Source: Thermoplasmata archaeon
GTDB lineage: Archaea > Thermoplasmatota > Thermoplasmata > GCA-020350865
DNA length: 64,000 nucleotides
Reading direction: 5' to 3'
NCBI GenBank assembly: GCA_020348445.1
Contig: CP070751.1
Coordinates: 2,712,750-2,776,749, forward strand
The position numbers were made by a program, and so were the translations under genes. How positions within the stretch are numbered: the first letter of the stretch is position 1; each line of letters opens with the position of its first letter. Positions 6,595 to 44,778 of the stretch are shown here, piece by piece. Below the pieces are notes generated by a model that saw nothing but the letters and a program-made list of their open reading frames with translations, made no database searches and was not told the origin of the DNA.

Positions 6595-6835
6595 TGCTAT
6601 TCCTCCTTTAAAAACGCTGCTTTATCTTCTATTTGATTATGTTTAAGTCCTATTTAATTGTTTTAGAACATTTTTTGAATTTTAGTGATATGATATTGAC
6701 ACCCTTGTACAATGTTGATATATAATATACTTTTAACAAGGGAAATAATGTGGGTTTTGTTCCAATTCCTAAATCTTTATTTATCATGCCCAACCTTAAG
6801 GTGTAAAGAGATATTCCTTATTAAATGGTGAGCCA

Positions 6836-7318
6836 ATGAACATCTACATTACCATGACAGGTTTTTCAGACTGGGCAATTTTCAACAGTCTATGGGCCGT
6901 GGTGAGGTTGAGGCAATATATTCCCGATAGAATATATATTTTCACGACAAAGAAGAGAAGAAGGCAGGCTGAGCTTGCGAAAAGGAGATTCATTATATTA
7001 CTCAAGGAGTACGGTAAAAAGCCAAACATTGTGATCAGTGAGGTGCCTAAAGCAGATTTTGTGACATCGGGATGGCGCATCAACGATGTAGTAAAAAAAG
7101 AAAAATCACTGGGGAATAAAATAGCAATCGAAGTAACGCCTGGAAGGAAGGCCATGGTTGCGGGAGCCCTGGTTCCCAGCATCCAGGGTAAGGTTGATCA
7201 TGTGTTCTACCTCTATCTAGAGGATGTCGATTATGCGGACAACCTATTTTTACGAATTCCTCTGACTGTACAGCATTCCCATGATTTCATGGAGGAGATC
7301 AAGTTTGCGGGTAAGTAA
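6836..7318 (+). CDS. CARF-like Rossmann sensor protein (putative)
   Basis: This 160-aa protein has a Rossmann-like beta-alpha-beta start (NIYITMTGFSDWAIFNSL), a second strand (DRIYIFTT), and a late motif EVTPGRKAMVAGAL at about 97-110. The order and spacing recall CARF domains of the Csm6, Csx1 and Can2 type, whose second signature is usually TGGTKxM or TPGxKxM before an alanine-rich helix. CARF domains bind cyclic oligoadenylate or related nucleotides. The gene overlaps the downstream PIN-domain gene, so the pair is probably translated together. It is preceded by GGTGA a few bases before the ATG and by a TATA-like box near 6772. No cas gene lies in the window. The family assignment rests on motif reading only; a different Rossmann-fold nucleotide binder is possible. 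Confidence 0.55.
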   Translation: MNIYITMTGFSDWAIFNSLWAVVRLRQYIPDRIYIFTTKKRRRQAELAKRRFIILLKEYGKKPNIVISEVPKADFVTSGWRINDVVKKEKSLGNKIAIEVTPGRKAMVAGALVPSIQGKVDHVFYLYLEDVDYADNLFLRIPLTVQHSHDFMEEIKFAGK

Positions 7319-8399
7319 AGTAATTTCAAAAAAAGACCTCATGATCCTCTTCAATGAGATATACCTCTCAAAAAAGAGATGGTTTGATGTAAAATTTCCA
7401 TTTTATGATGTAAATCTTTTTAGCTGTGATATTGGAGCATATGAAATCAGAAATATAATTACCAGAAATGAGTTCGAGAAAGTAAAGCGTGAGCACAACC
7501 CTGAAAATGATTTTCTTCAAAACGATCTGCCGCGATTTTCTGATCTCAGGGACTGTTTTTTATCCTCCACCTTTCTGCCTTTTTCGAACTTCACAGCAGT
7601 GAAGGAGAGATTAATGGAACTTGCTAAGACGATAAAAAGCCCTGGGGGAAGGTCAAAACCTCTTTATTTGGCCTTGGATACCAATCTCGTTTACTTTAAG
7701 TTCTTTTCCAGATATTTTCCTTTGGATAGTACAGACGGTGATTTACGGGTGACAGCCGTAGATTTCAGGATCGCTTTAAGCGACATAGTGAGGGAGGAAA
7801 TCGACACAAATATCAAATACAAGTACAGATCCTCAAATCTCAAGAAGATGAGAGAGGCATTTGGCCATGCCCAGATTGTGGATGAGTTCATTAACGCAAG
7901 TGCCAGAAAAACAAGAATGGCAAAGAGCGCTCAGAACGAAATTAAGCTCCTTTTTGCCCAGTTGGAGGCTGAAAGGGCCGAATCCGGAAATTTCCCAAAG
8001 GACAAGGAGGAAAGGGATAGACTCATTGCAAAGTCATACTCAAACTTCGAGAAGGACAGAAACGGTGAAGTGTTGCTTCTCACCGCTGATGAGGATATGG
8101 CATATCATGCCAAGAATGCTGGTCTGCTTCAAGAGACCCTGATAATCCCGCATAACATAGGTTCTAAAGGGAAAATCGAGCCCATAAGTCTGGTGAACCT
8201 GATTTTCGACTGTGCCCTGACGTTTGGTGTTGTCAGATTAGGTGGTGTTGGGGTAACAATTTTCGGAGAGTGGAAAGGGAAAAGCTTCGATGATTACACA
8301 AGGGAACATTTGAAAATATGGCTCGAAAATGACAGTAGGATCAAGAAAGAATTTGAAAGGGATATAGGTATAGCAAATGCCATTGATGAAATCGGTTGA
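7305..8399 (+). CDS. PIN-domain ribonuclease paired with the CARF-like protein
   Basis: The frame is open from an ATG at 7281. I prefer the TTG at 7305 because GGAGGAG at 7291-7297 sits at the right distance from it, giving a 364-aa protein that overlaps the upstream gene by 14 nt. A PIN nuclease domain fills the middle: the first aspartate in LALDTN (about 125), an acidic pair in IVREEID (about 161-165) and the aspartates of TADEDMA (about 260-265) match the metal-binding set of active PIN RNases. The N-terminal 110 residues and the C-terminal 70 are not recognised. Translational coupling with the sensor-like gene suggests a two-subunit ligand-gated RNase. The activity and its ligand are inferred. 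Confidence 0.7.
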   Translation: MRVSKVISKKDLMILFNEIYLSKKRWFDVKFPFYDVNLFSCDIGAYEIRNIITRNEFEKVKREHNPENDFLQNDLPRFSDLRDCFLSSTFLPFSNFTAVKERLMELAKTIKSPGGRSKPLYLALDTNLVYFKFFSRYFPLDSTDGDLRVTAVDFRIALSDIVREEIDTNIKYKYRSSNLKKMREAFGHAQIVDEFINASARKTRMAKSAQNEIKLLFAQLEAERAESGNFPKDKEERDRLIAKSYSNFEKDRNGEVLLLTADEDMAYHAKNAGLLQETLIIPHNIGSKGKIEPISLVNLIFDCALTFGVVRLGGVGVTIFGEWKGKSFDDYTREHLKIWLENDSRIKKEFERDIGIANAIDEIG

Positions 8400-10086: not shown

Positions 10087-11340
10087 ATGGAATTGGAGTA
10101 TCTATACTGGCTCATACTTCTCCTTCTCTTTGGACGGGCCCTAGGCGAGTTATTTCGTCGTTTTGATTTTCAGCCTTTAATAGGGGAGGTCATAGCAGGC
10201 CTTATATTGGGGCCTGCGGTCCTTGGTTTGATAGTTTTTTCAGCTGGAGAAGAAACACCCTTAGAATATTTCAGCCAGTTTGGAATTATAATGCTCATGC
10301 TACTTGCAGGGCTTATCACAGATTTCGAATCCTTTGCAGAAAATAAGATATCCAGCATAGTAATTGGAGCAGTTGGTGTGGTGGTCTCTTTTATCATAGT
10401 GTTCCTCCCACTTAGGTTCCTTTTTGGCCTTGATCTTCTTGCTTCGCTCTTTTTAGCCGCCGTTCTCAGCAATACCGCAATCGAGGTCTGTGCCGGGATA
10501 TTCATACATAGTCCAAATCATAAAATAAAGAATATAGTCCTGGGAGCAAGCTTCGTGGACGATATCATAGCTGTATTTCTTATCGGTATCGTGTCTTCCA
10601 TGGTTCTATTGCCTGATAAAACCCTTGATATCATGGAGATAGTATGGCTTGCCGCAAGGGTCATCATATTTTTATTTTTGGCCCTGGTTGTGGTTAGCTG
10701 GCCCTTGGAGAAGCTCTTTGATAAACTCCATAAAGGAACAGAGGAGTTCAAATGGATGCTTACAACCACGTTCATTCTCACTTTTTTATTCGCACTCGTT
10801 GCCACATGGGTTGATTTGCACTATGTGATCGGCGCATATATAGCGGGCTTGATAGTTGGGAAATGGGGATCCAAAGTCGGACCACTTTTGAGGCGTCGCA
10901 TTACATGGCGCAGGATCGTAGATGACGTAGATCCCCCTCTTAGGGCCATCTTTGGCCCCATATTCTTCGGTTATATCGGGCTTTCTGCCAGTATATTGAT
11001 TGCCGAAGGTGACACTTCAGTAGGAGTGGTGGTACCTCTAATTACCGTTTTAGTGATATTGGTATTTGCAGGGAAAATACTGGGATGCGGTCTAGGAGCG
11101 AAAATTTGCAGATTCACAAACAACGAGTCCTTCACAATAGGAGTGGCAATGTGCGGACGTGGTGCCCTTGAGTTGGTTCTTCTGAGTTTCGGACTGGAGA
11201 TCGAGGCTATTTCTGAATCGCAGTTCATATCTGTCATCATAGTGACCCTATTTACGATAGTGCTCACACCGATTTTCTATACTCTCTCTGTTAAAAGAAG
11301 TGAAAAAAAGAAAACGAAATCCTCTGAAAAACCCGCCTAA
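10087..11340 (+). CDS. CPA2-family cation/proton antiporter (KefB/NapA-like)
   Basis: This 417-aa integral membrane protein has about 12 hydrophobic segments. The N-terminal FQPLIGEVIAGLILGPAVLG and the later AVLSNTAIEV and SFVDDIIAV stretches match the Na+/H+ exchanger domain of the CPA2 family; the two aspartates of FVDD are at the usual ion-binding position. It lacks a TrkA-N or RCK domain at the C-terminus, which ends in a short Lys-rich tail. It should exchange Na+ or K+ for protons across the cytoplasmic membrane; the ion is not decided by the sequence. A TATA box (AAAATATATG) lies about 25-30 bp before the ATG. The gene ends four bases inside the opposing queE. Confidence 0.88.
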   Translation: MELEYLYWLILLLLFGRALGELFRRFDFQPLIGEVIAGLILGPAVLGLIVFSAGEETPLEYFSQFGIIMLMLLAGLITDFESFAENKISSIVIGAVGVVVSFIIVFLPLRFLFGLDLLASLFLAAVLSNTAIEVCAGIFIHSPNHKIKNIVLGASFVDDIIAVFLIGIVSSMVLLPDKTLDIMEIVWLAARVIIFLFLALVVVSWPLEKLFDKLHKGTEEFKWMLTTTFILTFLFALVATWVDLHYVIGAYIAGLIVGKWGSKVGPLLRRRITWRRIVDDVDPPLRAIFGPIFFGYIGLSASILIAEGDTSVGVVVPLITVLVILVFAGKILGCGLGAKICRFTNNESFTIGVAMCGRGALELVLLSFGLEIEAISESQFISVIIVTLFTIVLTPIFYTLSVKRSEKKKTKSSEKPA

Positions 11341-11966
11341 ACTCCCTTCTTCTCTCCCCAAATGAGCTTATGAAGCTGAGGTAAAACTCTCACATAAAGC
11401 CCATCGGCAAGAACCCATTCGGCGAGTTCCTTCAATTTCCTACCTCCCACAGGTGTCATAATAAGGCTGCACGTGGGTTTATATTTTGCGATTATTTCCT
11501 TTGCATATTCATAATCCTTATTATCGGCTATTATGAACTTCAACTGGTCATTTAAGCTCAAAAGCTCGAGATTAGAGAAGTTCATTTTTTCCTGCATACC
11601 TGATGAGGGGCATTTGATATCAAGGCTGATTACCATGGATCCTAAACAAGGAATATTCTCGATTGATTTTGAGCCGTTGGTCTCCAGGCAGACCTCATAG
11701 CCTTTGTCCATAAGTTTTTGGATAAGTGAAATAACCTCATTTTGTAAAAGCGGTTCCCCGCCTGTTATACAGACATGATTTTGTGAAAAATCCTTTACCT
11801 TGGCCATCACTTCCTCGCAGGACATCTCCTTTCCTTCCTCGTAAGCGTACTTGGTATCACACCATGAGCACCTGAGATTGCAGCCAGTCATTCTCACAAA
11901 TGTTGTGGGGATGCCTATCAGGATACCTTCGCCCTGAATGGATGCGAAAATCTCGTTGACCTTCAT
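11337..11966 (-). CDS. queE: 7-carboxy-7-deazaguanine synthase (radical SAM)
   Basis: QueE turns 6-carboxy-5,6,7,8-tetrahydropterin into 7-carboxy-7-deazaguanine, on the path to preQ0 and the archaeosine of archaeal tRNAs. The radical-SAM cluster motif is CNLRCSWC with Cys29, Cys33 and Cys36. The GEP motif follows in CITGGEPLLQ, and the N-terminus EIFASIQGEG is the QueE hallmark. The length of 209 aa is normal. It lies 11 bp downstream of queC on the same strand, so the two form an operon. Confidence 0.95.
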   Translation of the reverse strand: MKVNEIFASIQGEGILIGIPTTFVRMTGCNLRCSWCDTKYAYEEGKEMSCEEVMAKVKDFSQNHVCITGGEPLLQNEVISLIQKLMDKGYEVCLETNGSKSIENIPCLGSMVISLDIKCPSSGMQEKMNFSNLELLSLNDQLKFIIADNKDYEYAKEIIAKYKPTCSLIMTPVGGRKLKELAEWVLADGLYVRVLPQLHKLIWGEKKGV

Positions 11967-11977
11967 TTTCTTTCCTC

Positions 11978-12682
11978 TTAGTCTTCATATTCCATGGGAT
12001 CCTCTATTCCCGCTTCTTTGAAACCCTTTAGCCTGAGAATGCAGGAATCACATTTTCCGCAGGCTAAATCGCCACCTTTATAGCAAGACCATGTAAGGTG
12101 AAATGGTACATTCAGCCTCTCACCTTCTTTTACTATTTCGGCCTTTGTCAGATTGATTAAGGGGTATTTGATCACAACGGGTTTTCCTTCTATTCCGGTT
12201 TTGGTTCCCAGTTCTGCCACCTCCTGGAAGGCCTCAAAGTATTCAGGTCTACAATCCGGGTATCCGCTGTAATCCAGGGCATTGGCCCCTATAAAAATAG
12301 CTTGGGCCTCAATAACCTCGGCATATCCCAGGGCAAGGGAAAGAAGTATGGTATTTCTGGCTGGGACATAGGTTATGGGAACATCGGATCCTATTTTATT
12401 TTCATCTCGCTTTTCGGGAATTTTAATTTTCATGTCAGTTAAGGCTGAGCCACCTACCTGTGATATATCGATTTTTAGTATTTTATGTTCTTTTACTTCA
12501 TACCAGTTCGCGATTTTTTGTGCACTTTCCAGCTCCTTATCATGCCTTTGGCCATAATCAATAGACAGTGGATATAATTCATAATCTTCCTCGTGGGTAC
12601 GGGCCAGGGTTACTGTGGAATCCAGACCACCTGAAAGTAGTACCACTGCCTTTTTTCTCAAATCCTTCACCTTGGCATCCAT
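11978..12682 (-). CDS. queC: 7-cyano-7-deazaguanine (preQ0) synthase
   Basis: QueC is an ATP-dependent enzyme that amidates and dehydrates carboxy-deazaguanine to preQ0, the precursor that archaeal TGT inserts into tRNA. The PP-loop SGGLDST at residues 17-23 binds ATP. The C-terminal zinc site is formed by Cys200, Cys208, Cys211 and Cys214 (CYKGGDLACGKCDSC). It is the first gene of the queC-queE operon. A TATA-like stretch (TTTTTTATACT) lies about 20-25 bp before the ATG, so translation may be nearly leaderless. queD and archaeosine synthase genes are not in the window. Confidence 0.95.
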   Translation of the reverse strand: MDAKVKDLRKKAVVLLSGGLDSTVTLARTHEEDYELYPLSIDYGQRHDKELESAQKIANWYEVKEHKILKIDISQVGGSALTDMKIKIPEKRDENKIGSDVPITYVPARNTILLSLALGYAEVIEAQAIFIGANALDYSGYPDCRPEYFEAFQEVAELGTKTGIEGKPVVIKYPLINLTKAEIVKEGERLNVPFHLTWSCYKGGDLACGKCDSCILRLKGFKEAGIEDPMEYED

Positions 12683-32711: not shown

Positions 32712-33197
32712 CTAATATTTCCAACCTTGCTCTCTAAAGAATTCTATTAATGAAATACATTTCATATTATAATCTTTACAAACATCCGGTATTTTTGGCC
32801 GAGCAGTGGGATCAGTCCTTGGGTGTTCAGATGTTATGACTGTCCATTTTCTTGTTTTTGCTAAAGCAATTAGAAATGGATCTGCTTCTGGAATAGTCTT
32901 ATCAGGATCTATAAGTCTCTGGTATTTTGATGAAATAATACTGACTTCTTTAAGTTGTTCCTCATCTAAATCAATGAACATAGTTTTATGTTTCTTAGCC
33001 CATTCCAACATCTCATCATCAACTTTTTTAAGCTCATTATAAACTTCTTTTGGAGCGATTAATAATCTTTGTTTAATGAGAGCTTCAATATCTTTCCATA
33101 ATTTATTAAAAATATCTGGAGGATAAAATCTTCTCCATAAATCTATCAAGGCACATGTATCAATACAATAACCCTTGGTTAGCCTTGCTTGAATCAT
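32712..33197 (-). CDS. DUF4411 PIN-like protein (putative toxin)
   Basis: The 161-aa protein has a PIN-like fold start, GYCIDTCALIDLW, with the first aspartate at about 13. An acidic APKEVYNELKK helix follows, then EADPFLIALA and VITSEHPR near the end, as in DUF4411. Members of this family sit next to Xre-ImmA/IrrE proteins and are predicted RNase toxins. Its ATG overlaps the stop of the upstream partner gene by 4 nt. It has not been shown to be toxic here; this is inference from the family. Confidence 0.8.
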   Translation of the reverse strand: MIQARLTKGYCIDTCALIDLWRRFYPPDIFNKLWKDIEALIKQRLLIAPKEVYNELKKVDDEMLEWAKKHKTMFIDLDEEQLKEVSIISSKYQRLIDPDKTIPEADPFLIALAKTRKWTVITSEHPRTDPTARPKIPDVCKDYNMKCISLIEFFREQGWKY

Positions 33198-34393
33198 GCA
33201 TTAACCTCAAGTAACTTCTCCACCTTAGGAAGATATTTGAGATGAATATCGAGGTAATCAGCCACATCACTGCAGGTGATCCTATCATTCTTATATGATT
33301 CTAAGACTAATGTAACGAATGGAGTTCCATTTTTTTGAATGCATTCTTTAGGCGGATCTCGCCGCCCTCCCGTTTTTTTCTCTTGCTCTCTTTTTGCTTT
33401 TGTTTCCCATTCACCATGTTTTCTTTGATAATATCTTCTCGATGTTCGCTTGAATAGGAGTAACCGCCTAAGAATCACTTCTGGACTTACATTAAAATCT
33501 TTAGCAATTTTCCCAAGGGTTCTACTAGACCATTCTTGGGGGGTGTTTATTCCCCTAACAAAGTCATGATTTAATAGATCCTCTTCGGGAACCAAAAATG
33601 AACCTGAAAAATGATTACAAAATATTTCAATTGCTCTTATTTCCCCAGATGAGGTGATGCGGTTTTTGGATTCCCAATTCTCTACTCTAATTGGATCACA
33701 TATCCCTCCCTTTTTTAAAAGAAGATGTCCGAATTCGTGCCAAAGAGAAAAGGTTCGACCTGTAATACTATCTTTTGTATTTAGAATAATAACTGGAATG
33801 TCACCATCAGTTAAAGAAAAAGCTCTTAATTCTTCGATAGGCATGGACATCTGAAATACCAACACACCGAGATTTTCAATTGACATTTTCCATTGATTAA
33901 ATGCATCAGTATGGTTCTCCCAGCTGAATTGTTGATGGACTGGGATGTTAATAATTTTCCTCACCTTCTTTGCTAAACTTTCCGGATTCGCTGAGAGTGT
34001 AACATGACCGATTTTCTTCATAATGTCGCTATGAAAATCGCTTTCTAGTTCCTTAGTCAAAGAATGAAGCCGTCTCGCTCTTCTAATTGCTAGTCTAGTT
34101 TTAGGAGAAACAGGTATTTTATCTTCTCCCGGTAATGTTCGAAAATCCTTAGGAAGCGGGGGTTCTTTTGGAGGCTCTGTTAAAAAAAACACTGCAAGCG
34201 GTCTCTTGTAATAAGTAGAAAGGGTTTTTACTTGGTTCAATGTGGGTTTTTTATCTCCCGATTCCCACATTTCTACCAGATTAGTGCTGATATTAAGCCT
34301 AGAGGCGACATCATTTATAGTCCTTCCAATACTCTCCCTTGCCCATATAAGGACCTTTGGTTTAACATCAACCTCTAAAGATTTTTTTGACAT
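33194..34393 (-). CDS. Xre-HTH plus ImmA/IrrE metallopeptidase (putative antitoxin/regulator)
   Basis: The start at 34393 is chosen for the GGAGGG before it, giving 399 aa; an earlier ATG adds 51 residues without family character. An Xre helix-turn-helix at about 18-70 (TINDVASRLNISTNLVEMWESGDKKPTLNQVKTLS) is followed by the ImmA/IrrE zinc-peptidase domain with SLWHEFGHLL (His219, Glu220, His223). A charged C-terminal part is not recognised. ImmA/IrrE proteins cleave repressors or antitoxins. The gene precedes DUF4411 in one unit of a type II toxin-antitoxin-like module. An in-gene EIRAIEIFCNHFSGSFLVPEE segment supplies the usual third zinc ligand region. Confidence 0.85.
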   Translation of the reverse strand: MSKKSLEVDVKPKVLIWARESIGRTINDVASRLNISTNLVEMWESGDKKPTLNQVKTLSTYYKRPLAVFFLTEPPKEPPLPKDFRTLPGEDKIPVSPKTRLAIRRARRLHSLTKELESDFHSDIMKKIGHVTLSANPESLAKKVRKIINIPVHQQFSWENHTDAFNQWKMSIENLGVLVFQMSMPIEELRAFSLTDGDIPVIILNTKDSITGRTFSLWHEFGHLLLKKGGICDPIRVENWESKNRITSSGEIRAIEIFCNHFSGSFLVPEEDLLNHDFVRGINTPQEWSSRTLGKIAKDFNVSPEVILRRLLLFKRTSRRYYQRKHGEWETKAKREQEKKTGGRRDPPKECIQKNGTPFVTLVLESYKNDRITCSDVADYLDIHLKYLPKVEKLLEVNA

Positions 34394-34583
34394 AGCTATA
34401 TTCCCTCCAAATGCTGTTTCAGCTCCTATACACTCGGAATGGGCACACAGCTTTATCTTTTTATCGCTCCTCTCCTCAATTTGATATGTTTTTTCGCTAT
34501 AATCTGAATGCTCAAAAAAGCTATAAAATCGATTTTGGATTACCAAACCTCAACCTCATTTTAAGGCTTTGATGGGAGATACC

Positions 34584-39008: not shown

Positions 39009-39123
39009 TAGTTTGTACAGGAAAAGGCTGTAAATAAACGCATAAATAGTGGGCGAAATTTATTGGCATTTTCCATTCGAATGGTGGAAAAACAATGATG
39101 TCGATTCGGGGGAGAAATGGAAA

Positions 39124-42100
39124 ATGAACCAGGGCGGTGAGAGAAAGACTCTTAAAGAGTTCCTAGAGGACCTTCCCAAGGAACCATGCTTTACTCCGCT
39201 TCCTAATCAATATTGTGTTATATGTTCAGTATCCAATAAAGATGTGGCCGAAGCATGCATAAAAAGCGGGAATATCCCTTCGAAACTTAAGGCATTGAAA
39301 AAGGATCAACTCATGGAAATCGCCGAGTGCTTTGGGCAATCCACAGAGGGATCCAAATCAGAATTGATAGAAAGGGTAATAAATGTAATTGAGGGAGCCG
39401 AGGAGGAGGTTGAAGAGGTTGCCCCTTCAGAGGAGGAGGTTGTAGAGTTCGAGGTAATGGAGGAAGGAGAGGAAGAAATCGAAAGGCCCCCTCCAACAAT
39501 GGAGAAAGAGGAAAAAGAAGAAAGGATTGCTGAAAATCCTCTTATGGAGTTTCGGGAAAACCTACCTATTGATCCGTGTTTCACACCCCTTCCAAATCAA
39601 CATTGTACAATATGTTCAATTATGAATAAAGATGTGGCCTCAAGATGTATAAAGGGTGGGCAGATACCTTCTAAACTCGCGGCTATGGAAAAGAACCAGC
39701 TAGTGGATATCGCCTCCTGTCTTGGCTTATCTTGGGAGGGAACAAATGATGATTTGATTCAAAGAATTATCACTGCATCTGAGGAAGGTGAAGTTGAATT
39801 GGAAAAGGTGGCTGAAGAAGAAGTGGAAGAGCAAGTACAAGAGGAGGAGGAAGAAGAGGTTCCAATCGAAGAGGAAGTAATTGAGGAAGAGGTTGTCGAG
39901 CCTGAAGAAGGTGGGGTAGAATTTGAATTGATGGCTGAAGAAGAAGTCGAAGAGCAGGCAGAAGAGGAAGAACCCTCGGAAGAAGAACCTGAAGAAGAGG
40001 TAGTTGAGGAACCAGAAGAGGAGGTTCCAATTGAAGAGGAAGAGGTTGCTGAAGAGGTCGAAGAGGAAGGTCCAACAGAAAAAGAAGAAGAAATTGAGAA
40101 ATCCCCTCTCAGAAAATTTCTTGACGAGCCTCCCAAAGAGCCTTGTTTTTCTCCACTTCCTAACGAATACTGCATCATATGTTCAATATCAAATAAAGAT
40201 GTTGCCTCAACATGCATAAAAGGTGGCCAAATATCATCGAAACTAAAAGCACAAAAAAAGGCTCAACTCATGGAGATTGCAGAATGTCTAAATCAATCTA
40301 CCGAAGGGACGAAGCCTGAATTGATAAAAAGAATCCTTCGTGTGTCTGGGGAAGCTGAAGAGAAGGATGAGTTGGTTGAGCCTGAAGAGGAAGAAATAGA
40401 AATCGAGGAGGAGGCAGAGGAAGGCGAGGAAGAAGTCAAAGCAGGTGAAATAGAAGAAGGAGTAAAAGAATCCCCTCTCAGAGAGTTTTTGAAAAATCTT
40501 CCCAAAGAACCGTGCTTTACTCCACTTCCCAACGATTTTTGCACCATATGTACAATTTCAAATGAAGATGTGGCCTCGGCATGTATAAAGGGGGGAGATG
40601 TGTCCTCGAAGCTCAAGCCCATGAAAAAGGCCAAGCTTATCGAAATCGCAGAGTGCCTCAGCCTCTCAATTAAGGGTACAAAATCAGATTTGTTGAAAAG
40701 GATACTTGCTCAAACGATAGAAGGTGAAGCAGAGGTTCCGGAGGAGGAATCACTTCCCTCTTTGCTTGAAGAGTTCACAGATAGGATGGAAAAGGCAGCC
40801 ATCGGGCCAAAAGAAGAAAAAGAACTGACCCTCAGGGGATTTATACTCGATCTTCCAACACAACCTTGTTTCACACCGCTTCCTGACAGCTATTGTATCT
40901 TATGCTCAAGGCTCAACAAAGAGGTTGCTGATTCATGCATAAAGGGTGGGCAGCCACTGTCGAAGCTCAAGCGTATGAAGAAGATTCATCTCATTGAAAT
41001 CGCGAGTTGCCTGGGCCTTTCCACAGATAGAACGAAGATGGAATTGGTAGAAGACATCTTGGCTGCAACCGAGCAACCCGAATTAGCTATAAGAGAGGTA
41101 AAAAAGGTAGAGGAGAAAAAAAGGATCGAAGCACCACCCGTTCCAGTGGTTGAAAAGGAAGCACCGAAGGTCATGGAAGGTGAACTGGAACTTGAATGTC
41201 CAGATTGTGGAACTTCGGTTGAGATCGATGCATCAGTGTGCCCTTCTTGTGGATTTGATTTTGCACTTGCAGAAAAGGAGGAATTGCCCGAGGAGGGGTA
41301 CGAGTGTCCAGAATGCGGCAGAATTTTTACTGAACCTGTTCCCTCTTGTCCGGATTGTGGGACCGAATTTGAAGGAGTAGAAGCATTTGAAGAGGAAGCA
41401 GAGGAGGAGCTTGAAGAGTACGAGTGCCCTGATTGCGGTTCCTTAGTCACTGTAAAGGATTCAGTGTGTCCGTGGTGCGGTCTGGAATTTGACGTGGAAG
41501 CCCGGGAAGAGGAAGTTATTGAACATGAATTTGAAGAGTTCGAGGAAGTGGGGGAAGAGGAAAGAGGTCTTGAAAGTCGTGTATCTGAGATTGGGGAACC
41601 TGAAAAAGCGGTTTTTACGGCAGGTATTACCAACGGTCTTCGCGAGGGCGAGGGTGGATTGACAAATGGCATTACCAATGGATTGAAGGTGGCCAGGCCG
41701 GGTCTCACAAATGGACTTACCAATGGCTATAGAAAGGGTAAGCCTGGTCTGACCAACGGTTTGACCAATGGCCTAACAAACGGTCTTCGAGCCTTGAAAG
41801 TGGGCATTACAAATGGATTGACCAACGGTAACGGTATTACAAACGGTCTGGGTCCTAAACGCCCTGTTATCAAGGAGAAAAGCAATAAATTGAAACTCAT
41901 TGCTGTACCGATAATACTGATTATGCTGATTTTAACTCCCTATATTATAGTGGACATGGCCGAGCCAGAAGAGCGGATTGAAATCGATGGTAGTTTCGGT
42001 GATTGGAGTGGCGTGGATAAATTCTCAGAGGAAGCCGATGTACCTCCAGAAAACATAAATGTCGATATCACCTCCTTTGGAGTTGACAGCAGGCAGCAGG

Positions 42101-44778
42101 AGCTCTCCTTCTATTTGGAGGTTAAGGGGCAAATGCTTCAAGGTGAGCCTGAAGATATTGGCAGACATATGGATACTGCCTACATTTTCATCGATGTAGA
42201 CCAATCTCAAGAATCAGGCTATCTCATAGATAATATAGGTGCAGATTACATGGTTGAGGTCGCTGGGTGGAGGGGTGAAATTTACTCACAAATTTTAAAT
42301 TCATATACAGAGGAAGTTAATGATTGGAATCTTTGGGAGTTTATTGGCCGGATTTCTGCAGATGCTTCAGACTCAAGACTTGAGGTGCAGGTTGATTACA
42401 GCGAATTGGGCATGAAGAACAATGAAAAGGTTGATGTCCTGTTCTACATGCAGGGATACGATGGATCTGAGGATTTTGCAGATACCGTGATTTCCAATGA
42501 AAAGGGAGTTTTAATTGTTAACCAACAACCATTGGGTGATTCCTTTGTAACAGGTGAGAAACAGGTTATGTTGATGCTTCAGTTGACAGCAAGAAACGAG
42601 GATATTACAGTAACTGGCATTAAGATCTCCAGAAAAGGAGTTGGCTCTGATGCTGATGTGAGTGAGGTAAGGCTCATTAGTGGTTCAACTGACAAAGGTA
42701 CATTGAACAACGGCGTGTGCGAATTCCAAACCGACATAAAACTGTCAAAGGATGTTCATGAAGCCGTGTTCGTTGAGGTTGATATAGCTCCTGCTGCTCT
42801 TGATATGGGAAGCATCGGATTTAAGGTTGATTCACCCCATGATATAACAACCAATAAAGGTACCATAACACTGAAGTCAGTGGAACCGGAATCCTATCAA
42901 TATGATATCAGCTATATCAAATCAATTCCCAAGGAAATAGTGGTTGATGGTGCATTTGCTGATTGGGAGATGATAAACAAGATTAGCGATGATGCAAATG
43001 ATGTGAATAAAGAAAACTTGAATATAAAAGAGTACGGAGTATCAAATTCATCGCAGATGGCCTCATTCTATCTAAAAGTTGATGGAAAAATGTGTTATGG
43101 GGCGGCTGTGCCGTATTGGAATTACGTGGCGGCAGCTATACCGCAAGAGCCTTCAGAGCCCGGGGAACCTGGATCTCCCGGGGAAACTCCAACTCTAAAG
43201 CCAAGAACTGGCGAGGATTTCGTGTATATTTTTATAGACAGCGACAATTTATCCACAACTGGTTACAGAATCGGTGACATGGGTGCAGATCACCTCATCG
43301 AAATCATAGGAAGGTACGGTGATATAACCTCCAGAACGCATCTGAGTTTCTTAGGCCCATCACAACATAATTGGATTTGGTTAAATGAAGGAGATGTCAA
43401 GGCAGAAACAAACAGTGCATGTTTGGAGACTCAAATCTCAGTTAGTGGGTTGAATATAACAGGGAATTTTCAGGTCTACTTTCAAACCACAGATTGGAGC
43501 AAGAGCGTATCTGATTATTCGGATGGCACGGTGTCAAGGGGAACAAGGGGAATCGTCACAATTCAGGAATTTAACGCTGCATCCATTGGAGCAACTGCAA
43601 CTTCGAATCAAAGATCCCTTATCAGAACAATAGGCCAGTCCACCAATTATTTCTTTAGTTTCTATTACAATGAAGATGTTCAGAATATTACGTGGAAATG
43701 GAGTTTGACAGGTGACGACAATCCATGGCCTAATCCCCCGCAATTTGTATTTACAGAGGCTCATCAAAACATGACAAATATATCGGTTTGGTACGATGAT
43801 ACCAATCAGAAGATATATGTTGTTGCTGATAATGATAGTGCTGACTATAATGTCACTGTTCGCAAAGGAACAATTTCTGGAAACACCATCACTTGGGGAT
43901 TTGAAGTCGATGTCAACGTATCAGCCATAGGTGTGGGAAATAAAAATGCCTTCATTTCAAGGGATGCAGATGGGCACCTCTGGGTGATATCAAGCATGAT
44001 GGAAGCAGTTGGGAATTATGGAGTTGTGGCAAATAGATCGGTGAGTCAAGATGATATTACTCAATGGCAGGTCGGTGAACCCTTGACCACATCAGCTGAT
44101 GATGATCCCTCACCAATAGACGTTTATCCCATAATCCTTTCAATAGGAACTTTAGGCGATCCAGACATGTACGCAATTTGGTATGACTCATCAGGTATCA
44201 TTCAAGGAAGACGTTATGATGGATCATCTTGGAGTGGAACTACCGATTATATTGATAATACGGGTACCGATGACGTTGATGGGCAAAAGTGGGGCCCATC
44301 TGCGGTTGTAGATTCTTCAAGTAGGGATGTCCATATTATATATGTGAACGCAACAGGGAATGTAAATTACACAAAATATAATACCGGCGGGACTTATGTT
44401 GAATCCCCAAAGACTCTCCGTTACACAGAAGCTGCTTTTCCCACTATATCATTGGTTGGATCAACTGGACTGAATGTTTATTGGATTAATGAATCAGTGG
44501 GAGGTAACAACCGGATTGAAGGTAACTCTTCAAATGATCTTGGCTCTACTTGGTCCTCAATTGTCGATTTTACCCCTGATACGTTTGCCAAACGATTTCT
44601 AACCTCCGTTTATTATGCACCAAACGAATTTTTTAGTGGATGGCATTGGACACAAAATGTGAGCAATGACAATGACGTTCTTTTTGAGCGTATTCCCGAA
44701 TACCAAGATGTTCTTATCCCGTTATTCGTAACGATTTTAATGGCAGCGGTCTGGCAAAGAAAGAGGAGAAAGTGTTAA
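39124..44778 (+). CDS. Giant transmembrane protein: five Cys4/SAP-like modules, zinc ribbons, TNG repeats, CBM9-like and BNR-like outer domains
   Basis: The frame is open from a GTG at 39049; I take ATG 39124 because of GGGGGAG at 39108-39114. Five modules of about 80 aa (near 10-85, 139-218, 328-407, 449-528, 569-648) each have a Cys set (PCFTPLPNxxCxIC...C) and a SAP/LEM-like helix pair (LKxMKKxxLxEIAxCLGLSTxGTKxELI). Glu-rich linkers separate them. Three zinc ribbons (about 691-805), eleven TNG tripeptides (about 834-915) and a membrane span (about 923-945) follow. Outside come two CBM9-like domains, a BNR/sialidase-like propeller and a final hydrophobic span with RKRRKC at the very end. 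The N-terminal half should face the cytoplasm. SAP folds often bind nucleic acid; whether these do is open. Confidence 0.85.
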   Translation: MNQGGERKTLKEFLEDLPKEPCFTPLPNQYCVICSVSNKDVAEACIKSGNIPSKLKALKKDQLMEIAECFGQSTEGSKSELIERVINVIEGAEEEVEEVAPSEEEVVEFEVMEEGEEEIERPPPTMEKEEKEERIAENPLMEFRENLPIDPCFTPLPNQHCTICSIMNKDVASRCIKGGQIPSKLAAMEKNQLVDIASCLGLSWEGTNDDLIQRIITASEEGEVELEKVAEEEVEEQVQEEEEEEVPIEEEVIEEEVVEPEEGGVEFELMAEEEVEEQAEEEEPSEEEPEEEVVEEPEEEVPIEEEEVAEEVEEEGPTEKEEEIEKSPLRKFLDEPPKEPCFSPLPNEYCIICSISNKDVASTCIKGGQISSKLKAQKKAQLMEIAECLNQSTEGTKPELIKRILRVSGEAEEKDELVEPEEEEIEIEEEAEEGEEEVKAGEIEEGVKESPLREFLKNLPKEPCFTPLPNDFCTICTISNEDVASACIKGGDVSSKLKPMKKAKLIEIAECLSLSIKGTKSDLLKRILAQTIEGEAEVPEEESLPSLLEEFTDRMEKAAIGPKEEKELTLRGFILDLPTQPCFTPLPDSYCILCSRLNKEVADSCIKGGQPLSKLKRMKKIHLIEIASCLGLSTDRTKMELVEDILAATEQPELAIREVKKVEEKKRIEAPPVPVVEKEAPKVMEGELELECPDCGTSVEIDASVCPSCGFDFALAEKEELPEEGYECPECGRIFTEPVPSCPDCGTEFEGVEAFEEEAEEELEEYECPDCGSLVTVKDSVCPWCGLEFDVEAREEEVIEHEFEEFEEVGEEERGLESRVSEIGEPEKAVFTAGITNGLREGEGGLTNGITNGLKVARPGLTNGLTNGYRKGKPGLTNGLTNGLTNGLRALKVGITNGLTNGNGITNGLGPKRPVIKEKSNKLKLIAVPIILIMLILTPYIIVDMAEPEERIEIDGSFGDWSGVDKFSEEADVPPENINVDITSFGVDSRQQELSFYLEVKGQMLQGEPEDIGRHMDTAYIFIDVDQSQESGYLIDNIGADYMVEVAGWRGEIYSQILNSYTEEVNDWNLWEFIGRISADASDSRLEVQVDYSELGMKNNEKVDVLFYMQGYDGSEDFADTVISNEKGVLIVNQQPLGDSFVTGEKQVMLMLQLTARNEDITVTGIKISRKGVGSDADVSEVRLISGSTDKGTLNNGVCEFQTDIKLSKDVHEAVFVEVDIAPAALDMGSIGFKVDSPHDITTNKGTITLKSVEPESYQYDISYIKSIPKEIVVDGAFADWEMINKISDDANDVNKENLNIKEYGVSNSSQMASFYLKVDGKMCYGAAVPYWNYVAAAIPQEPSEPGEPGSPGETPTLKPRTGEDFVYIFIDSDNLSTTGYRIGDMGADHLIEIIGRYGDITSRTHLSFLGPSQHNWIWLNEGDVKAETNSACLETQISVSGLNITGNFQVYFQTTDWSKSVSDYSDGTVSRGTRGIVTIQEFNAASIGATATSNQRSLIRTIGQSTNYFFSFYYNEDVQNITWKWSLTGDDNPWPNPPQFVFTEAHQNMTNISVWYDDTNQKIYVVADNDSADYNVTVRKGTISGNTITWGFEVDVNVSAIGVGNKNAFISRDADGHLWVISSMMEAVGNYGVVANRSVSQDDITQWQVGEPLTTSADDDPSPIDVYPIILSIGTLGDPDMYAIWYDSSGIIQGRRYDGSSWSGTTDYIDNTGTDDVDGQKWGPSAVVDSSSRDVHIIYVNATGNVNYTKYNTGGTYVESPKTLRYTEAAFPTISLVGSTGLNVYWINESVGGNNRIEGNSSNDLGSTWSSIVDFTPDTFAKRFLTSVYYAPNEFFSGWHWTQNVSNDNDVLFERIPEYQDVLIPLFVTILMAAVWQRKRRKC
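41613..41855 (+). repeat. In-frame TNG tripeptide repeat tract
   Basis: The region encodes eleven copies of (L/I)TNG separated by short basic spacers, located between the zinc ribbons and the membrane span of the giant protein. The DNA uses varied codons (ACAAATGG, ACCAACGG and others), so the repeat is kept at protein level rather than by recent DNA duplication. Confidence 0.85.

Follow-up and report, generated by a model that had tools for sequence, protein, structure and literature searches.

A conserved CARF–PIN gene pair in archaeal genomes, mostly without Cas10, as a candidate two-subunit ligand-gated RNase

Two overlapping genes on the forward strand of the window (the whole 64,000-nt stretch of archaeal DNA analysed here) encode proteins of 160 and 364 aa, as the first-pass annotation had reported; Table 1 collects their positions and those of the sites discussed below. 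The upstream ORF is intact. The 364-aa length of the downstream protein is counted from a TTG, which gives a 14-nt gene overlap; an alternative start, the upstream ATG at 7281, would give 372 aa. The TTG is the better supported start, because the apparently strong ribosome-binding site GGAGGAGAT lies a few bases upstream of it, within the first gene, and because the closest homologue, in a sister genome, starts at the equivalent position. Sensor and nuclease are not carried on one chain here: there are two ORFs, which overlap, and the first ends at its own stop codon (7316–7318).

Table 1. Positions in the window of the two genes and of the sites and residues discussed
Feature	Positions	Strand	Basis
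Ribosome-binding-site-like GGTGA, 5′ of CARF gene	6827..6831	+	sequence; from consensus
Stand-alone CARF protein, 160 aa, CARF_m1 group	6836..7318	+	PADLOC, AlphaFold2, Foldseek, profile to Sso2081
CARF motif I, G9-F10-S11, equivalent to GTS of ring nuclease Sso2081	6860..6868	+	alignment, PMC10018336
CARF N17, equivalent to adenine-contacting E17 of Sso2081	6884..6886	+	alignment; invariant in relatives
CARF motif II, T101-P-G-R-K105, predicted ligand loop	7136..7150	+	conservation; Sso2081 equivalents R105/K106
Ribosome-binding-site-like GGAGGAGAT, within CARF gene, few bases 5′ of PIN TTG	7291..7299	+	sequence
PIN-domain protein, 364 aa (372 aa if ATG 7281)	7305..8399	+	PADLOC, Pfam, AlphaFold2, Foldseek
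PIN acid D125	7677..7679	+	66/66 PIN proteins
PIN acid E165	7797..7799	+	66/66 PIN proteins
Invariant E212	7938..7940	+	66/66 PIN proteins
PIN acid D238	8016..8018	+	66/66 PIN proteins
PIN acid D262	8088..8090	+	D in 65/66, E in one

The smaller protein had been called CARF-like, and comparison with known families and structures bears this out. The PADLOC model PDLC01971 (CARF_m1-CARF) matches it over nearly its whole length (E 1.5e-36), and there are further matches to PDLC01972 (E 5.7e-23) and to the N-terminal part of the 465-aa PDLC01973 (CARF_m1-CARF_PIN; E 2.9e-31); in Pfam, Csa3_N fell slightly below cut-off. The AlphaFold2 model, built like that of its partner on an alignment of natural relatives, is confident (pLDDT 83) and has the Rossmann-like fold of CARF domains. 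Its best Foldseek matches are CARF proteins (cA4-bound Sso2081, cA6-bound Cam1, and Csa3; E 1.7e-6 downward), and a CARF profile matched both Sso2081 (E 1.7e-7) and residues 26–134 of the SiRe_0806 chain (E 2.6e-5).

Sso2081 binds cA4 through R105 and K106; its S11 holds the scissile phosphate in position, and its E17 makes contact with the adenine (PMC10018336). The residues aligned with these in the window protein are R104, K105, S11, and N17, the first two falling within a string already singled out in the first-pass annotation (EVTPGRKAM, residues 99–107). The protein has GFS at motif I and GRK at motif II, where the pattern of Crn1 ring nucleases is GTS with GRK. Among 61 CARF proteins, N17 is found in all, K105 in 58, and R104 in 42. 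S11 is found in just 24, so ring cleavage does not appear to be a family trait. With the ligand loop conserved while the S11 motif is not, the pattern would be that expected of a sensor, and binding of a cyclic oligoadenylate by the window protein can be predicted from its conserved residues.

The larger protein matches positions 169–454 of PDLC01973, the fused CARF_m1-PIN model (E 8.3e-25), with PIN_4 slightly above cut-off in Pfam. Its AlphaFold2 model is also confident (pLDDT 89); with it, Foldseek found SiRe_0806 of Sulfolobus islandicus (E 8.9e-6, but with a high rmsd), and a PIN profile matched residues 248–357 of that protein weakly (E 0.16). The first-pass annotation had credited the protein with a complete PIN active-site set in the motifs LALDTN, IVREEID, and TADEDMA; all three are present, but a further acid, D238, and the invariant E212 had been missed. 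Together, the Pfam match, the residue conservation (Table 1), and the model indicate a PIN fold with a conserved acidic site, and the protein would be expected to cleave RNA. At the level of sequence, each of the two window proteins corresponds to one half of the fused CARF_m1-PIN family already known.

The arrangement itself is conserved. In a set of 60 relatives the CARF gene was found in 20, and in every one the PIN gene comes after it. A survey of 330 genomes of the same class (completeness at least 80%), searched with profiles from the CARF and PIN alignments, gave 70 PIN loci that were kept for pairing analysis; 65 of them, spread over 62 genomes (62/330, or about one fifth), are immediately preceded by a CARF gene on the same strand. 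Since the two genes are neighbours in dozens of genomes, the pairing is more than chance. Of the two observations that had been named beforehand as fatal to a CARF–PIN unit, a high-confidence match of the small protein to a non-CARF Rossmann family and a pair not conserved as neighbours, neither was made. Among the five unpaired PIN loci, two stop at a contig edge (G091 and G336), two fall at apparent contig breaks, judging by their coordinates (G007 and G167), and the last is in G200. A single gene in G289 (L096:1-979, minus strand) is a natural in-frame CARF–PIN fusion, the only one seen. The named relatives are Thermoplasmata-type MAGs, and in a phylum-wide search the pair was present in further classes too.

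Inheritance within the class looks largely vertical, with losses, because the PIN tree mostly tracks families (f1, f3, f14, f15, f18, f30, and f6 are monophyletic; f7, f19, and f20 are not) and because the recurrent neighbours in same-class genomes are mostly housekeeping genes (M24 peptidase, homoserine dehydrogenase, cysteinyl-tRNA synthetase). One genome, G069, has three PIN loci paired with CARF, L070 and L071 among them; L071 branches far from the other copies of its family in the PIN tree, which suggests either transfer or an old paralogue. A viral origin for the pair was considered and dropped, as no relative was found in a phage collection (tblastn) or in viral contigs.

Around the window copy, too, the neighbours are housekeeping rather than defence genes; clear defence-gene neighbours were found only for the haloarchaeal plasmid relatives. 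Eight such plasmids encode a PIN relative, always with a small gene upstream of it. On the five plasmids that were scanned, this small gene matches CARF_m1 at 1e-52 to 1e-66, and its PIN partner matches the fused CARF_m1-PIN model at 1e-20 to 1e-31. These copies lie in a defence-island setting (BREX, DISARM-type, and other defence genes): they adjoin pglX and BrxE, a DrmE-family gene, Csa3 (next to the pair in Haloferax), and a BREX ATP-binding-domain gene, with ADP-ribosylglycohydrolase, VWA/HEAT/AAA, and UvrD plus PD-(D/E)xK genes as further neighbours. At five loci from two families (L022, L023, L062, L069, and L075), two adjacent CARF3 genes (Csa3/CasR-like, winged-helix) lie directly upstream of the pair; four signalling-type genes stand in a row there, and no cas genes were recognised at these loci.

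Some other features of the surroundings may be recorded here. Downstream of the pair, at a distance of 3 kb, are a QueE-like radical-SAM gene (by sequence similarity) and QueC (window 11337–12682, minus strand). Besides the window, L027, L035, L037, and L038 have QueE close to the pair; the first comparison, of 20 loci, gave 5 with this proximity, and TGT and QueD-like genes stand by the pair on a Haloferax alexandrinus plasmid (L103). This proximity could reflect a link to 7-deazaguanine chemistry or a shared ancestral gene order; the former was not adopted, as the distances vary. Elsewhere in the window, a DUF4411 gene overlaps a gene for an HTH and IrrE/M78 peptidase protein (32712–34546, minus strand), likely as a toxin-antitoxin or defence-type pair; PADLOC reports a capP match; and a 1909-aa ORF (39049–44778, plus strand) has matches to zinc-ribbon and SAP-domain only.

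So far, CARF domains have been seen almost exclusively as sensors of the cyclic oligoadenylates that Cas10 makes. The window holds no sign of such a source: a PADLOC scan of its 41 ORFs found neither a cas gene nor a nucleotide synthase, and a simple scan found no CRISPR-like repeats, in agreement with the first-pass annotation, which had placed no CRISPR locus nearby. The genome to which it belongs consists of one 5.16-Mb contig with a completeness score of 82%; searches of it for Cas10 palm, Cas1, and mCpol gave no match, and its sole SMODS match is below cut-off. Of the 330 class genomes, 8 have Cas10; of the 62 pair carriers, 3 do, leaving 59 without it (Fisher p 0.17), in a survey that includes many incomplete MAGs and would overlook a cyclase that had diverged very far. 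Cas1 was found in 5 of 21 carriers in a smaller genome set, and mCpol in none of 60 relatives. Whether the pair co-occurs with type III CRISPR had been raised as a question: it can do without such a system and shows no clear association with one. It does not keep company with Cas10 as a type III ancillary effector would, nor was a synthase found in its operon or genome, as for CBASS or mCpol-linked signalling. The source of any ligand in this genome is probably not Cas10.

SMODS matches were set aside as probable CCA-adding enzymes, on protein size and mostly sub-threshold scores. One 265-aa short ORF in a pair-bearing genome (G012:C5:27395-27751, L109) has an SMODS match above cut-off, and is possibly a CD-NTase-like protein. 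Repeats at L034 and L038 (three exact copies, with 51 and 45 bp spacing) were rejected as CRISPR, the intervals being too short for spacers.

The reading that we favour, with moderate confidence, is that the pair forms a ligand-gated RNase of two subunits. Most likely the CARF protein dimerises, and its conserved TPGRK loop would take up a small nucleotide, either a cyclic oligoadenylate or some similar ligand derived from RNA. The dimer would probably contact the PIN protein through the N-terminal domain of the latter; once bound to ligand, it would turn the RNase on allosterically, and the resulting cuts in host or invader RNA would bring on dormancy or block the invader. Such a function would probably be defensive. 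The proposed complex, ligand, gating, and cleavage draw on the known families, the natural fusion, and SiRe_0806, by analogy.

Several lines of evidence support this two-subunit reading: both proteins match halves of one fused model; their predicted folds are those of a sensor and a nuclease, and cA4-bound SiRe_0806 matches both; the pairing is nearly constant, one genome has the genes fused, and the PIN acids and CARF K105 are strongly conserved. The plasmid copies beside defence genes, the adjacent CARF3-HTH regulators, and Csa3 in Haloferax also speak for it. Weighing against it are the lack of Cas10 and mCpol matches in the window's own genome, where the one SMODS match is sub-threshold, and the housekeeping neighbours of the window copy and most same-class relatives. 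More tentatively, and short of an even bet, the pair may represent a stable, mostly vertically inherited, CRISPR-independent archaeal signalling module, in which a stand-alone CARF sensor controls a PIN RNase encoded by a gene of its own and responds to a ligand that comes neither from Cas10 or mCpol nor from any known CD-NTase; the trigger would then come from an as yet unknown nucleotide synthase, or from RNA-end products.

The main alternative differs from the two-subunit reading in ligand and purpose only. RNA ends with a 2′,3′-cyclic phosphate have been proposed as the ligand of RtcR-type CARFs (PMC11090510), and might be the ligand here as well. That would explain how the ligand loop could be conserved in carriers of which nearly all lack Cas10, and both the vertical inheritance and the housekeeping neighbours would fit a role in cell maintenance. 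We nevertheless regard it as unlikely: the solved structures nearest to the CARF protein, and SiRe_0806 as well, are bound to cyclic oligoadenylates, and the haloarchaeal copies sit among defence genes.

As a second alternative, the CARF protein might serve mainly as an off-switch, either a ring nuclease or an antitoxin-like restraint on an otherwise active PIN protein, the whole being a toxin-antitoxin-like pair. In VapBC systems, a DNA-binding antitoxin is encoded upstream of a short PIN toxin, and the small gene overlapping the PIN gene recalls that order. PGAP names two haloarchaeal CARF homologues CRISPR-associated ring nuclease, and the window protein has G9 and S11 as well as G103-R104-K105 as in Sso2081. 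Against this, S11 is missing from most relatives, the CARF protein is no DNA-binding antitoxin, and VapC is much smaller than this PIN protein; we consider an off-switch rather improbable. A third idea, that the pair outlived a type III CRISPR system since lost and has no present role, might be supposed of proteins that are classically type III accessories in a genome lacking Cas10. It is very improbable and was rejected: both genes are intact, and their functional residues are conserved at about 60 loci from many families that have no Cas10, which largely refutes it.

A sharply delimited pair of genes, with ligand and catalytic residues conserved, in dozens of genomes where no Cas10 was detected poses the question of what the CARF protein binds and what makes its ligand. 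Two small purified proteins could answer it, and the pair may shed light on CARF effector function outside CRISPR.

Among known systems, the closest is the CARF_m1 group (PDLC01971, PDLC01972, and PDLC01973), which both window proteins match at high significance; the fused CARF_m1-PIN form is one chain, whereas in the window and at nearly all class loci the genes are separate (overlapping, in the window). SiRe_0806 (PDB 9JXW and 9JXX, with cA4) is a PIN-domain protein, and among solved structures it lies nearest to the PIN model. Since the CARF profile matches one part of it and the PIN profile, weakly, another, it appears to be a CARF–PIN counterpart in one piece; it is a single chain, distant in sequence from the window PIN protein, whereas the window has two proteins. 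A literature search found no paper on it. The CARF protein resembles Crn1/Sso2081 in being small and stand-alone, with equivalent GxS and GRK motifs, but Sso2081 is an off-switch in a type III host, while the window family does not conserve S11 and has a PIN RNase as an obligate neighbour. Csm6, Csx1, Can2, Card1, Cam1, and Cad1 join the same sensor fold to a toxic or enzymatic effector, but are fused and fed by Cas10, where the window pair is split and its carriers mostly lack Cas10. As in VapBC, a small gene precedes and overlaps one for a PIN RNase, but the likeness goes no further: the smaller gene encodes a CARF sensor, and its 364-aa PIN partner carries additional parts at both the N and the C terminus.

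The CARF–PIN combination is not without precedent: an association of CARF families with PIN was already remarked on in 2014 (PMC4012209), PIN was listed among cOA-activated effectors in 2025 (PMC12669027), and PADLOC has models for both fused and stand-alone CARF_m1. Outside the 2020 CARF census, a literature search found neither the conserved two-gene form nor its Cas10 independence described. The CARF protein, the PIN protein, and their fusion were thus already known; the conserved split, Cas10-free form appears to be new.
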